Assembly (NCBI GenBank): GCA_026991755.1
Contig: JALXAX010000162.1
Span: 1 to 42,612 of the forward strand
Length of the DNA stretch: 42,612 nucleotides
Direction of reading: 5' to 3'
DNA from: Thiotrichaceae bacterium
GTDB lineage: Bacteria > Pseudomonadota > Gammaproteobacteria > Thiotrichales > Thiotrichaceae
Numbering within the stretch: position 1 is the stretch's first letter; each line of letters starts with the position of its first letter. Made by a program: the position numbers and the translations under genes. Under the pieces are notes generated by a model. The model was not told the DNA's origin and searched no databases. It saw nothing but the letters and a program-made list of their open reading frames with translations. Of this stretch, positions 5,918 to 36,019 are shown one piece after another.

Positions 5918-6028
5918 CTAAAATCCTCAGTTAGACAGCCTATAGAGTGATTCTCTTCGGCTGAATGGCGTACACCTACAGGGATGTAGGTGTTAGGGCG
6001 ACGCAGGACGCTAAAGCCGAGTAAAAAA
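5918..6028. repeat. REP-like palindrome plus dispersed repeat
   Basis: Bases 5918-5945 are an inverted copy of the module at 2718-2745 (CCTATAGAG core). Next comes a compact cloverleaf-like palindrome: outer arms CTTCGGCT (5957-5964) and AGCCGAG (6016-6022), with an inner perfect stem ACACCTACA-GGGA-TGTAGGTGT at about 5971-5992. The inner stem and the following GCGACGCAGGACGC resemble extragenic palindromes common in gammaproteobacterial genomes. It lies in the 468-base gap between the divergent rpoZ and hemH genes. Confidence 0.6.
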
Positions 6029-6071
6029 AGGAATTAATGGTTTGATCCTTAATGAGTATCTTTACATAGTC

Positions 6072-6230
6072 AGTCAGTCGAAGACTTAGTTGAGCTTTAG
6101 CGAAACTTAGAAGCTTCAGCAGGGTTGCTCTATAGGCTGTAGCGTCTTCACTCTATAAGTGAAGCTAGATAAAGCTATTTACTTTAATACTATCAATAAT
6201 TTATTTAATATTGGAAGCGGTTAACTGAGG
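6072..6230. repeat. Inverted partner of the 2622-2745 repeat, upstream of hemH
   Basis: Bases 6082-6118 are the reverse complement of the GCTTCTAAGTTTCGCTAAAG segment present at 35948 and 1598. Bases 6150-6226 are the reverse complement of 2622-2703. The copy ends a few bases before the hemH ribosome-binding site, so any hemH promoter must lie in or before repeat sequence. Confidence 0.65.
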
Positions 6231-6241
6231 AATTTAGGATT

Positions 6242-7360
6242 ATGTTAGTAACTCGTTATAAAGGTGAAAAAGACTACTACCACGGTAAAAATGAATGTAC
6301 GGGTATTTTGCTGGTTAATCTCGGTACACCAGACCAACCTGAAACCGCTTCGGTAAAACGTTATTTAGCGGAGTTTTTGGGTGATCCCAGAGTGGTTGAA
6401 ATACCACGCCTTGTTTGGTTGGCTATATTACATGGCGCCGTGTTACGTCGGCGCTCTCCAATTACTGCAAAACTTTATCGTTCTATCTGGATGCAAGAAG
6501 GTTCGCCTTTATTGGTTTACTCACGCAGGATTGCTGATGCTATTGGCGCCAATGCAAAAAGACATTTTTCGGGGCCGGTAAAAGTTGAGCTGGCAATGCG
6601 CTACGGTAATCCTAGTATTGCTGAGGGTATGGAGAAGTTACGACAACAGGGGGCTAGGCGTTTGTTAGTACTGCCTCTTTATCCTCAATATTCGGCAACC
6701 ACCACCGCTTCGACATTTGATGCAGTTTGTAAGGAATTGCGCACTTGGCGCTGGATTCCTGAACTTCGTGTTGTGAATCAATACCATGATGATTCGGGGT
6801 ATATAAAAGCACTGGCGTCTAGTGTCGAAAGGCATTGGCATGAGTCTGCAAAGCAAAACTATTTGGTGATGTCCTTTCACGGGCTCCCGCAACGTAATTT
6901 GCAACAAGGTGATCCTTATTTTTGTCAGTGCCATAAAACAGCTCGTTTGCTGGCTGAGCAATTAAAACTGTCAGAAGATCAATGGAAGATTACCTTTCAA
7001 TCACGCTTCGGTAAGGCGCAATGGGTGCAACCTTATACGGATAAATCACTTGAAAAACTGGCTAAGGAGGGTGTGCAGCAAGTTGATGTTATTTGTCCTG
7101 GCTTTCCAGCGGACTGTTTAGAGACGCTGGAAGAAATGAATGTTGAGAATAGAGCCATTTTTCTTGAAGCGGGTGGGAAAGAATATCATTATATTCCAGC
7201 ACTCAATGAAAGTGATGAGCATGTCAATGCGCTGATGGATCTTATCGAGCAACATATCCAGGGTTGGCCTGAGGCGAGTGCTTCATGGAATCAGGAAAAC
7301 ACAGATAAAGCGGCTATTCAAACGCAGGCTCATGCGAAAGAGAAGGGCGCTAAGCTTTGA
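6242..7360 (+). CDS. hemH: Ferrochelatase
   Basis: HemH inserts Fe2+ into protoporphyrin IX, the last step of heme synthesis. The 372-residue product carries the family landmarks in order: GILLVNLGTPDQPETASVKR, YLAEFLGDPRVVE, RYGNPSI, LPLYPQYSATTTAS, the catalytic His in MSFHGLPQR, FQSRFGKAQWVQPYT and the CLETLEEMN segment with the metal-site Glu. Length is normal apart from a short charged C-terminal tail after about residue 345. The ATG at 6242 follows AGGATT closely. The next gene starts 13 bases downstream of the stop, so the two are probably cotranscribed. Confidence 0.95.
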   Translation: MLVTRYKGEKDYYHGKNECTGILLVNLGTPDQPETASVKRYLAEFLGDPRVVEIPRLVWLAILHGAVLRRRSPITAKLYRSIWMQEGSPLLVYSRRIADAIGANAKRHFSGPVKVELAMRYGNPSIAEGMEKLRQQGARRLLVLPLYPQYSATTTASTFDAVCKELRTWRWIPELRVVNQYHDDSGYIKALASSVERHWHESAKQNYLVMSFHGLPQRNLQQGDPYFCQCHKTARLLAEQLKLSEDQWKITFQSRFGKAQWVQPYTDKSLEKLAKEGVQQVDVICPGFPADCLETLEEMNVENRAIFLEAGGKEYHYIPALNESDEHVNALMDLIEQHIQGWPEASASWNQENTDKAAIQTQAHAKEKGAKL

Positions 7361-10342: not shown

Positions 10343-10510
10343 CTAGGAGGCTGTCCGAGAACTAAGAAGCTACTGCAAATCCCATGAGCGTCATAATCTG
10401 AGCTTATTGGAATCGTTAAATAGCTACGGCTATTCGCCTCTTCCAATAATCTCACCTTATGATACTCCTGTGATTTTCGCTACGCTTCTAGTTCTCGGAC
10501 AACCTCCTAG
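10343..10510. mobile_element. 168-bp foldback element (CTAGGAGG ends)
   Basis: The termini CTAGGAGGCTGTCCGAGAAC and its inverted partner GTTCTCGGACAACCTCCTAG match over about 22 bases with one mismatch. Complementarity continues through the arms to an AATAGC-TAC-GGCTATT tip at about 10419-10434. No coding capacity. It sits right behind the coiled-coil gene and before the rpsO promoter and could act as a transcription barrier between them. Confidence 0.8.
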
Positions 10511-10552
10511 ATAGCTAAAATACCAAATATTATCAATTAAGGAAATAAAAGG

Positions 10553-10581: not shown

Positions 10582-10680
10582 CCGCGCCCTTAGTTCTACG
10601 GACTTTATTTGGACTGGCTTTTAGCCACTGAAAATGAGGCTCGTAGTTTTTATGCAACCGTTAATCTGGAGCTTAGGATT

Positions 10681-10950
10681 ATGTCTCTGAATGCAGAAAC
10701 AAAGGCGAAAATCGTAGAAGAGTATCGCCAATCAGACACAGACACCGGGTCACCGGAGGTGCAGGTTGCGCTGTTAACAGCGAATATCAAGCACCTCAGT
10801 GACCATTTTTCTGTCCATAAAAAAGACCACCACTCACGTCGTGGTTTATTGAGAATGGTTAATCAACGCCGTAAATTGCTTGATTATCTAAATAGTAAAG
10901 ATTCTGATCGTTATAAAGATCTGATCAAACGACTCGGTTTACGTCGTTAA
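10681..10950 (+). CDS. rpsO: 30S ribosomal protein S15
   Basis: S15 binds the central domain of 16S rRNA early in small-subunit assembly and represses its own mRNA. The 89-residue product [17 protein letters not shown]..., with [26 protein letters not shown] and a GLRR end, matches S15 along its full length. ATG 10681 gives the standard 89 residues; the in-frame upstream extension is untranslated leader. A strong terminator follows at 10961 and pnp lies downstream, the conserved rpsO-pnp order. Confidence 0.97.
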
Positions 10951-11221: not shown

Positions 11222-13312
11222 ATGGCTAAAATTACAAAGACGTTTCAATACGGTGATAACACGGTAACTATCGAAACGGGCGAAATAGGTCGTCAAGCAA
11301 CAGGCGCTGTCATGATCGACGTAGATGGCACTGTGTTAATGGTAACGGCGGTAGGTCGTAAAGAAGCAGAGGAAGGACGTGATTTCTTTCCTATGACGGT
11401 TAACTATCAAGAGAAAATTTATGCTGCGGGACGCATCCCTGGTAACTTTTTCCGCCGTGAAGGCCGTCCAAGCGAGACAGAAACGTTAACTTGTCGTTTG
11501 ATTGATCGCCCAGTACGTCCGTTATTTCCCAATGGCTTTACTAATGAAGTACAGATTATTGCAACGGTTATGTCACTCAATCCTGATGTTGATCCAGAAG
11601 TTCCTGCAATCCTTGGTACTTCAGCAGCGTTATGTATTTCAGGTATGCCATTTAATGGTCCAATCGGTGCAGCTCGTGTGGGTTACATTAATGGTGAGTA
11701 TGTTCTTAATCCTAGTAAAACGGCATTAGAAGATTCTTTACTGGATTTAGTAGTAGCAGGTACTGAGTCTGCGGTATTAATGGTTGAGTCGGAAGCAGAT
11801 GAGCTGTCAGAAGAGGTTATGCTGGGTTCTGTTATGTTTGGCCACGAGCAAATGCAGGTGGCGATTCAGGCATTCAAAGAGCTTGCTGAGGAAGTAGCTA
11901 CTCCTGCATGGGAGTGGGAAGCTCCTGTAAAAGACCAAGCTATTGCTGCTAAAGTTGCGGAAGTATCTGAAGCTGCATTAACGGATGCCTTCCAAACGGC
12001 TGATAAAATGGAACGTTACGGAAAAGTAGATGCTGCTAAAGCGGCATTGCTTGAAGCGCTATGTAATGGTGATGAGGATGCACCATCGAAAGATGATGTT
12101 ATGGATGCATTTAAGACACTTGAAAAGAAAATTGTACGAGGTCGCATTATATCGGGTGAGAAGCGTATTGATGGACGAAATGTTGATGACGTTCGTGGTA
12201 TCAGTGCAAGAGTAGGCGTATTACCACGCACTCATGGTTCGGCCTTATTTACACGTGGTGAGACTCAGGCGATTGTTGTGACTACGTTGGGTACAGAGCG
12301 TGATGCACAGTTGATTGATGCCCTAGATGGCACCTTCAAAGAAGGCTTCTTATTCCATTATAACTTCCCTCCTTTCTCAGTAGGTGAGACAGGTCGTACG
12401 GGTAGCCCAGGCCGTCGTGAAATTGGTCATGGTCGTTTAGCTAAGCGTGGTGTTCTTGCAGTAATGCCAGATCCAGAGTCCTTCCCTTACACTATCCGTT
12501 GTGTGTCAGAAATTACTGAATCTAACGGTTCAAGCTCAATGGCTTCGGTTTGTGGAAGCTCACTATCACTGATGGATGCAGGTGTTCCAATTAAAGCACC
12601 CGTTGCGGGTATCGCAATGGGTTTGATCAAAGAAGGTGATGACTTCGCTGTACTATCTGACATCTTGGGTGATGAAGATCACTTAGGTGATATGGACTTT
12701 AAAGTAGCGGGTACAGAAGGTGGTATCAATGCACTGCAAATGGATATCAAGATTGAAGGTATTACTCGCGAAATCATGGAGCAAGCTTTAACGCAAGCGA
12801 AAGCAGGGCGTTTATACATTCTTGGTGAAATGGCGAATGCTATTACTGAATCACGTGAAGAAGTTTCTGACTTTGCACCTCGTTATTCTACGATGAAAGT
12901 ACCTAAAGACAAGATTCGTGAAGTCATCGGAAAAGGCGGAGAGACTATTCGCTCTATTTCTGAAGATACAGGCGCACAAATTAATATTGATGACGATGGT
13001 AATATTAAAATCGCTGCTACTAGTGCCGCTGATGCTGATGCTGCAAAGGCACGTATCGAAGAGATTACTGCTGAAGTTGAAGTCAATAAAATCTACAATG
13101 GAAAAGTGGCTAAGATCATGGACTTTGGTGCATTTGTAACGGTATTGCCTGGTAAAGATGGCTTATTGCACATCTCGCAAATCTCTAAGGAACGTGTGGA
13201 GAATGTTTCAGATCACTTGTCTGAAGGCGATGAAGTTCGTGTAAAAGTGATCGAGATTGATCGTCAAGGTCGTATGCGCTTGAGCATGAAAGAAATTGGT
13301 GACGACGAGTAA
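11222..13312 (+). CDS. pnp: Polyribonucleotide nucleotidyltransferase (PNPase)
   Basis: PNPase is a trimeric 3'-to-5' phosphorolytic exoribonuclease of the RNA degradosome. The 696-residue product has two RNase PH-like domains (first around residues 10-215, second around 310-540), the [22 protein letters not shown] block, the [17 protein letters not shown] segment of the active half, a KH domain ([16 protein letters not shown]) and a C-terminal S1 domain ([20 protein letters not shown]). Length agrees with the family. AAAGGAT precedes the ATG at 11222. It follows rpsO as usual. A 271-bp repeat element lies between the stop and the terminator at 13626. Confidence 0.97.
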
Positions 13313-13329: not shown

Positions 13330-13600
13330 CTAGTACTCCAGCAACTTAGGTTTAATGGATACAGAGCAATCCAAAGCGCTCAAGACAAGGCTTGGGTTGC
13401 AGCCAATGGTTGTTCCCTTGGCAAGACCCATAACGCAGTATTGAGCGCTTTGGGTTGCTCCCTTCGGGCGAGCCAGGAAGCGGTCATCCACGTTGTTGCG
13501 TCTTTTGTGAAGGGAACAACCATTCCCTGCAAGACGCGCCTAGCGGCTAACCGCTTCCTGACTCGCTGTATCCATCAAACCTAACTTGTTGGAGTACTAG
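13330..13600. mobile_element. 271-bp element with 35-bp inverted ends and two interlocking hairpins
   Basis: The ends CTAGTACTCCAGCAACTTAG and, inverted, its partner finishing GGAGTACTAG stay complementary for about 35 bases with a few mismatches. Inside are two hairpins: 13364-13383 with 13441-13460 (20 bp, one mismatch), and AGGAAGCGGT at 13475-13484 with ACCGCTTCCT at 13550-13559. Their loops carry AATGGTTGTTCCCTT (13405-13419) and its exact reverse complement (13510-13524). There is no ORF. It lies between pnp and the pnp terminator. Confidence 0.8.
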
Positions 13601-13625: not shown

Positions 13626-13654
13626 AAGGCAACTCGTGAGGGTTGCCTTTTTTT
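13626..13654 (+). terminator. Rho-independent terminator, probably of pnp
   Basis: AAGGCAAC and GGTTGCCTT form a stem around a short loop, followed by a T run. It lies 314 bases after the pnp stop because the 13330 element is inserted in between. Confidence 0.85.
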
Positions 13655-17583: not shown

Positions 17584-17742
17584 GAGACCCTTGCACGAAA
17601 GATATGACGGATATAAATGGCTTGAATTTCCTCTATTTCTGCTAAAACTTCGGCCAATAGCTCGGCTATTACCCTCTTTTTTAGCAAAAATAGAGAAAAT
17701 TACGCTCATTTTTCTCTCGCCATCCTTTCGTGCAAAGGTCTC
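17584..17742. mobile_element. 159-bp foldback element (GAGACC...GGTCTC ends), copy A1
   Basis: Ends GAGACCCTTGCACGAAAG and CTTTCGTGCAAAGGTCTC are inverted copies with one mismatch. The arms (CCTCTATTTCTGCTAAAA and TTTTAGCAAAAATAGAG) remain complementary to an AATAGC-TC-GGCTATT tip near 17656-17671. ATATA flanks both ends, possibly the target duplication. It fills most of the 334-base gap between hemA and the TPR gene; its reading frame runs by chance into that gene. Confidence 0.8.
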
Positions 17743-17767
17743 ATATAAGCATAATTTGAGGTTTTTG

Positions 17768-35744: not shown

Positions 35745-35816
35745 TATTTATATAACTGTCAGGACGATGACAGTTATCATCTCTTGAAATCGCTATATTC
35801 GTTCCCACGTAGCAAT

Positions 35817-36019
35817 TAAGGAAACTGAACAAGTCATGATTTGTTTTCCTGAGGCTAGAATCTGCCAATTTTTCGCTATAAAAGTGACCAATATCTACGG
35901 CTATTGCTAACTTTTCTATCAAAAACCTGACAAATTCTATCTGCTGAAAGCTTCTAAGTTTCGCTAAAGCTCAGCTAAGTCACAGAAATTTCGATCAGAC
36001 TCATTCAGACCTTCCTTAA
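35817..36019. mobile_element. Foldback element, longer relative of the 2227 copy
   Basis: It starts AAGGAAACTGAACAAG and ends CAGACCTTCCTTAAG. The interior matches 2227-2390 closely (GAGGCTAGAATCTGCC, CGCTATAAAAGTGACCAATA, CTTTTCTATCAAAAACCTGA) but carries an extra 38 bases (35948-35985, with GTTTCGCTAAAGCTCAGC) that also occur alone at 1598 and inverted at 6082. Confidence 0.75.

Follow-up and report, generated by a model that had tools for sequence, protein, structure and literature searches.

A mobile element downstream of pnp in a Thiotrichaceae bacterium carries a covarying pair of hairpins found between different transposon ends in many proteobacteria

Introduction

The interiors of MITEs are usually regarded as decayed filler. 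Directly downstream of the pnp reading frame of a Thiotrichaceae bacterium (GenBank assembly GCA_026991755.1), a 271-bp element at positions 13330-13600 folds into two long hairpins between inverted ends, and the locus raises the question of what moves such an element and what keeps its interior folded. The window referred to below is the whole stretch of DNA that was analysed, namely the 42,612 nucleotides of contig JALXAX010000162.1. A preliminary description, made from the letters of the window alone, had reported 35-bp inverted ends enclosing two hairpins, and had proposed that the 15-base loops of these hairpins, being exact reverse complements, could kiss and lock the fold. The element was regarded there as an inverted duplication under constraint, more elaborate than an ordinary MITE and possibly acting as a structured RNA or as a folded single strand of DNA during transposition. 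That MITEs form stable folds is familiar from earlier work (PMC10969869).

Layout of the element

Table 1. Features of the element and of its immediate neighbourhood in the window. R1 is a model built from relatives of hairpin B.
Feature	Position	Strand	Basis
pnp reading frame, just upstream of the element	11222-13312	+	ORF list
Whole element	13330-13600	+	CTAG at each end, holding the duplicated TA; edges sharp in the own-genome copies compared
IS630-type terminal inverted repeat on the left side (outer stem A)	13330-13363	+	26 of 33 bases identical to an IS630-type transposon end
Hairpin unit B, motif orientation	13364-13460	+	R1, 98.3 bits (not independent, R1 being built from relatives of B); covariation
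Apical motif AATGG-N5-CCCTT of B (loop 1 of the preliminary description), AATGGTTGTTCCCTT	13405-13419	+	Direct reading; consensus fold
Spacer between the units	13461-13468	+	Part of CCC-TTC-GGG
Hairpin unit C, the unit of B on the opposite strand	13469-13565 (13468-13566 as a hairpin)	-	R1, 73.9 bits, E 6.3e-15
Apical motif of C (loop 2 of the preliminary description), exact reverse complement of AATGGTTGTTCCCTT	13510-13524	-	Direct reading; consensus fold
Right terminal inverted repeat	13566-13600	-	26-28 of 33 bases identical to IS630-type transposon ends
Terminator-like hairpin with a T run, downstream of the element	13626-13654	+	Direct reading; not reported by the scan

The near-perfect inverted ends of the element, 35 nt each (13330-13364 and 13566-13600) and 91% complementary, enclose a core of about 204 bp made of two 97-nt hairpin units, B and C, which face each other across a spacer of 7-8 nt (Table 1). 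Above the long lower stem of each unit come an internal loop (AAGGC facing AACGC), a short upper stem and, at the apex, the motif AATGG-N5-CCCTT. Folded as RNA, the element reaches -153 kcal/mol (z -14.0) and none of 200 shuffles was equally stable; the DNA fold has a z of -13.7. The inverted ends and the two hairpins are confirmed, with a stability far beyond that of shuffled sequences. Direct reading also confirms that the two 15-mers are exact reverse complements and that a TTGCAG flank is common to both. No ORF of 80 aa or more overlaps the element, and no sigma-70-like promoter was found inside it by the scan.

The upstream frame is taken by us to be pnp (polynucleotide phosphorylase), the name given in the preliminary description. 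As a terminator-like hairpin follows downstream, the element would sit within the 3' transcript of pnp. The pnp 3' regions of three relatives (G001, G004 and G005) are without the element. Elsewhere in the window, dispersed and partly palindromic repeats at 2227-2353, 5918-6242, 10343-10523, 17585-17746 and 35816-36019 match the flanks of element copies, and this genome seems to carry several MITE-like families. The Rfam S15 leader at 10620-10737, upstream of an apparent rpsO, is an ordinary feature.

Mobility and target site

The element is a MITE that targets TA within CTAG. Its own genome, a draft of 207 contigs, holds it in at least 42 places, a lower bound as the initial pass scored 40 of 105 candidates, some of these places being partial copies. 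A 30-bp pattern of the ends matched the same genome 110 times at no more than 3 mismatches, the reversed control pattern giving 0 matches. Among relatives, matches were obtained in 20 of the 95 genomes searched (the own genome being counted), and the element-bearing contigs belong to Thiotrichaceae, Leucothrix and Cocleimonas. An empty site is provided by a paralogous stretch in locus L017, where a lone CTAG stands in the place of the CTAG-element-CTAG of the filled copy and 118 of 123 bases match. Tandem copies have one CTAG in common. Five copies (L020, L027, L198, L073 and L086) are flanked by TTAG..CTAG or CTAG..CTAA, which indicates that only the TA is duplicated since a 4-bp duplication would not predict such flanks. 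The TA is altered on one side in L010, L018 and L028, which is read as mutation, and the target paralogues of L026 have CTAT, a case that neither duplication model fits cleanly. The insertions are intergenic, and simple ORF calls around 30 copies displayed no bias in gene orientation (9 same and 8 opposite).

Reduced copies are found as well. Thirteen solo copies of 37-38 bp were examined and 12 of them have one common junction, at TGGA, which fits slippage involving short repeats at the base of the folded core; L072 and L079 are copies retaining a single hairpin. An element is also observed at the same place in two Cocleimonas genomes (L130 and L136). Its identity of 97.1% falls within the range of the flanks (81-100%), which points to an old insertion that was retained.

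Transposase family

Duplication of TA typifies the IS630/Tc1-mariner group, and the ends of the element are of the IS630 type, shared with IS that encode a DDE_3 transposase. In the 1248-bp element L261, the DDE_3 gene is flanked by perfect 33-bp ends beginning CTAGTACATCGACC. L267, of 1395 bp and with an interrupted coding region, has ends CTAGTACTCC..TGATGGATA of which 26-28 of 33 bases match those of the element, shuffled ends reaching at most 19. The ends of L255 match more weakly, at 16-20 of 33 bases, which is inside the range of shuffled ends or close to its maximum. All three loci come from other genomes than that of the element, where DDE_3 is represented by two weak remnants only. 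No intact DDE_3 gene was found in this 207-contig draft and no DDE_3 hit in 15 chosen relatives; such hits are present in 9 of the 25 core-carrying genomes of the class. The lack of an intact gene in the own genome concerns the present activity of the element and not the family to which it belongs.

Other candidates for a helper were considered. The DDE_Tnp_1 genes of the own genome were rejected as movers, none of the 10 hits having CTAGTAC ends. The DDE_Tnp_1 gene that neighbors one copy (L205, L213) seems to belong to a separate IS, at L205:2066-3343, which appears inserted in hairpin B of that copy. The R1 scan of eight loci with DDE_3 or DDE_Tnp_1 genes revealed no hairpin unit. No protein family stands out beside the elements as a linked helper gene, the largest recurring group being present at 6 of 77 loci.

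Covariation and geometry of the hairpin unit

The 78 distinct full copies were grouped into 38 clusters below 92% identity. The stems diverge strongly and wholesale between clusters and lineages, and the fold is kept. In alignment A1, made of 21 diverse copies, 77 of 92 pairs have changed on both sides. In 25 diverse B hairpins, 93.7% of the cells are paired and 27 of 33 pairs have both-sided changes; covariation scores 0.754, versus 0.244 for shuffled and at most 0.113 for slid alignments. The four apical pairs, AA/TT and GG/CC, barely vary and are uninformative either way. The structural constraint proposed in the preliminary description is supported, as is its view of an element more elaborate than an ordinary MITE.

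B and C are two inverted copies of one structural unit. R1, built from B hairpins only with no C hairpin used, detects hairpin C on the other strand with 73.9 bits. The inverted duplication of the preliminary description is supported. Applied to 77 sources, R1 returned 158 matches, of which 150 were aligned. All 56 pairs of neighbouring units on opposite strands are in the facing order, with a spacing of 7 nt in 46 pairs, 8 nt in 6 and 9 nt in 1. Three units of alternating orientation are observed at L229:1501-1859 (G180, a single-contig genome), which suggests unit arrays.

Elements with a single hairpin were also encountered, at L138:291-386, L114:3309-3404, L162:6273-6368 and L103:4362-4458, with ends of the AAGGAAGCTCTGATTAAT or TTAAGGGCACCTCTATTAAT type. 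The AAGGC/AACGC internal loop is present in these elements too, under a different apex that is mostly of the GCAATAGC..GCTATTGC kind. A pseudoknot between AAGG and CCTT was considered and rejected, as single-hairpin elements without CCTT still keep AAGGC/AACGC.

Spread and exchangeable ends

With E <= 0.001 as the limit, 87 of the 274 genomes sampled from the class (the own genome being counted) had matches to R1, whose E-values are rough; these genomes represent 73 of 222 genera. At E <= 1e-5, matches were found in 56 of 299 genomes of the phylum, including 34 from outside the class, of which 32 belong to one family. Twenty such loci were examined: 18 have an outer inverted repeat scoring at least 12, and 15 of these elements measure 260-274 bp. 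The same fold is displayed by four whole elements with unrelated stems.

The ends of core-bearing elements are of several types: CTAGTRC, TAGGGYCTGTTGACG, TATACTCAAG, GAGCCTGTCTCA and TTAAGG. In genome G537, elements with ends of the GAGCC type show a 3-bp TNA duplication in 6 of 7 cases, as is characteristic of the IS1031 group of IS5. The unit was detected by R1 in all six G537 loci scanned (L300, L302, L304, L306, L307 and L309) and also in L288, another stretch around the seventh G537 element. The presence of TA ends and of TNA ends around the core indicates one core framed by ends on which different transposases act. At the mismatch limits used, a partner IS was seen neither in G537 for the GAGCC (TNA) ends nor in four genomes for TAGGG ends. 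The recurrence of the core in MITEs with quite different ends across many proteobacteria suggests that the fold itself is kept. In genome G509 (e.g. L334, L337 and L338), full elements of about 262-285 bp are accompanied by solo palindromes of 50-59 bp that have TAGGGTCTGTTG ends, much as the own genome has its 37-bp solos.

The databases were searched for further matches. None was obtained in viral contigs with one pattern, in phage records with element 13330-13600, or in plasmids with this element or L223; two other elements gave weak partial matches in plasmids. Rfam 15 contains no matching family, the weak matches being all far below the cut-offs. No description of the element or of its core was found in the open full-text literature, a collection mostly devoid of subscription papers, and the element is undescribed in the available parts of PMC5896051, PMC4853749, PMC2718517 and PMC10969869.

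Strand asymmetry and proposed action

Selection on double-stranded palindromes alone would lead to equal numbers of G-T and A-C mismatches in the stems. These were counted in a strand-neutral test, in which pairs were chosen on a Watson-Crick content of at least 0.6 in 35 of the 38 clusters, three incomplete or chimeric rows being dropped. The G-T:A-C counts were 48:42 in the outer stem, 57:26 in B on the top strand, and 18:44 in C on the top strand, that is 44:18 on C's own strand; summed in unit orientation they amount to 101:44. The R1 alignment of 142 distinct rows, which leans to the model, holds 345 G-T wobbles among 4,608 cells versus 53 A-C. A strand test based on folding only one strand was set aside as biased, because folding the opposite strand altered the count. 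In 30 recent own copies the excess is already visible (25 G-T versus 12 A-C events) and may therefore be partly mutational; the substitutions in these copies are 0.67 at paired versus 0.53 at unpaired positions, paired positions being not more conserved.

The explanation that we favor, and regard as probable, is a non-autonomous MITE moved by an IS630-type transposase, whose core is kept for its single-strand fold, mainly as a protein-bound RNA. The transposase would recognize the ends of 30-odd bp and duplicate the TA within CTAG. Selection would act on the core as a single strand in its folded state, RNA more probably than DNA, with a stem sequence free to change and with its pairing and unpaired motifs kept. 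With the two units on opposite strands, whichever side is transcribed or exposed as a single strand presents one unit in motif orientation. The main action would be that of an RNA transcribed from neighboring genes and bound by a widespread cellular protein and, less likely, that of a single-stranded DNA hairpin at replication forks. Either action would aid the persistence of the element, whichever transposase moves it. The possibility of an action as a folded single strand, raised in the preliminary description, is supported. Computation establishes the mobility, target, ends, fold, covariation, geometry and spread, and the preference for RNA over DNA, the binding protein and the benefit are inferences. 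Against this explanation stand the lack of an intact DDE_3 gene in the own genome and of any in the 15 chosen relatives, the G-T excess of recent copies together with the absence of higher conservation at their paired positions, and the absence of a gene-orientation bias, of an internal sigma-70-like promoter and of an Rfam match.

The strand-specific mismatch pattern and the conserved unpaired bases would also suit a device made of single-stranded DNA, a hairpin that at replication brings the ends together or binds a nuclease or recombinase, raising transposition or copying. The 37-38 bp solos, with one junction in 12 of 13, suggest slippage across the folded core, and the similar 50-59 bp solos of another lineage are in line with such a device. 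However, the TA and TNA duplications fit ordinary double-strand transposases, the common wobble pairs suit RNA better, and neither a linked recombinase gene nor any outstanding protein family was found beside the elements. A DNA device of this kind seems rather unlikely.

The strongest rival for the covariation is template switching between the arms of inverted repeats, a mechanism published for hairpins (available part of PMC8794818), which would keep the stems of a plain palindromic MITE paired without selection. It is favored by stems that change wholesale between lineages and by recent own copies that look nearly neutral. Yet such switching would be expected to repair the T-C mismatch in AATGG/CCCTT and the internal loop as well, and both persist. 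It also leaves unexplained why the G-T excess is restricted to the strand of the unit, why the units face each other at 7 nt and why the total length is nearly constant. Weakened by loops that persist, by the strand asymmetry and by the facing arrangement, it is judged an improbable account of the element.

There remains the proposal that the two 15-mers pair with each other, in RNA or DNA, and lock the fold. The 15-mers are complementary but are not mainly loops: in the consensus fold AA/TT and GG/CC are paired inside each of them, which leaves about 5 apical bases unpaired. Their exact complementarity holds for element 13330-13600, its subfamily and several clusters, but not family-wide, most copies of genome JANTGD having only 7-11 of 15 bases complementary. 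In the 35 of 38 clusters where the 15-mers were readable (three were missed by the pattern), the AATGG/CCCTT flanks agree in 312 of 350 cells. The five middle bases match in 91 of 175 cells versus 86.9 expected on shuffling, and 26% of the shuffles are as high. In A1, the loop-loop covariation is 0.090; 41 of 500 shuffles score as high, the slid control scores higher (0.098), and each of the middle five loop-loop pairs fails in 5-7 of 21 sequences. Further copies, to which the preliminary description had looked for compensating changes, compensate in the stems and not in the loop-loop pairing, with middle bases of one 15-mer changing unmatched by the other, which is the outcome that the preliminary description had itself named as refuting. 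The 15-mers agree to the extent that they do because the hairpins are inverted copies of one unit with a conserved AATGG-N5-CCCTT. With self-paired 15-mers that do not covary, kissing loops are highly improbable in spite of the exact complementarity seen here and in several clusters.

Relation to known elements and significance

ERIC and Correia elements are textbook TA-duplicating palindromic elements. Like these and like IS630-type MITEs, the present element is non-coding, palindromic and intergenic, with a TA target, the ends of an autonomous IS and a strong fold of its transcript. It differs from them in a core that is a paired covarying unit, present in many genera and between unrelated ends; ERIC and Correia are set apart by description. 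REP, BIME and REPIN, associated with RAYT transposases, consist of imperfect hairpins arranged as inverted pairs and bearing unpaired bases specific to one strand, and the element resembles them in both respects. Unlike theirs, its units measure 97 nt instead of 20-40, its target duplications fit DDE transposases and, by eye, no GTAG or CGTC tag is present at the foot of the unit. According to the available part of PMC5896051, QMITE1 (300-400 bp, 2-3 nt duplications) and QMITE2 (150-190 bp, 7-11 nt) of Coxiella burnetii are present in about 50 copies each with very stable folds, and no orthologues of QMITE1 are reported elsewhere. As described there, they share with the element the condition of a gammaproteobacterial MITE with tens of copies and a very stable fold, and differ from it in size and target duplication.

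A bolder view can be put forward tentatively. The facing pair of units might be an independent genetic entity, a selfish and structured core some 200 nt long, repeatedly fitted with unrelated transposase ends (IS630-type TA; IS5-type TNA or TTAA) across Pseudomonadota, the folded strand of which would be recognized by a conserved host protein.

The interior of the element is its most widely shared part, with a very strong covariation; it is present in roughly one in three genomes sampled from the class and between ends calling for different transposases. The core is therefore a candidate family of structured RNA or DNA, absent from Rfam 15. If the fold is functional, it would allow the reasons for the success of some MITEs in different hosts to be tested directly.
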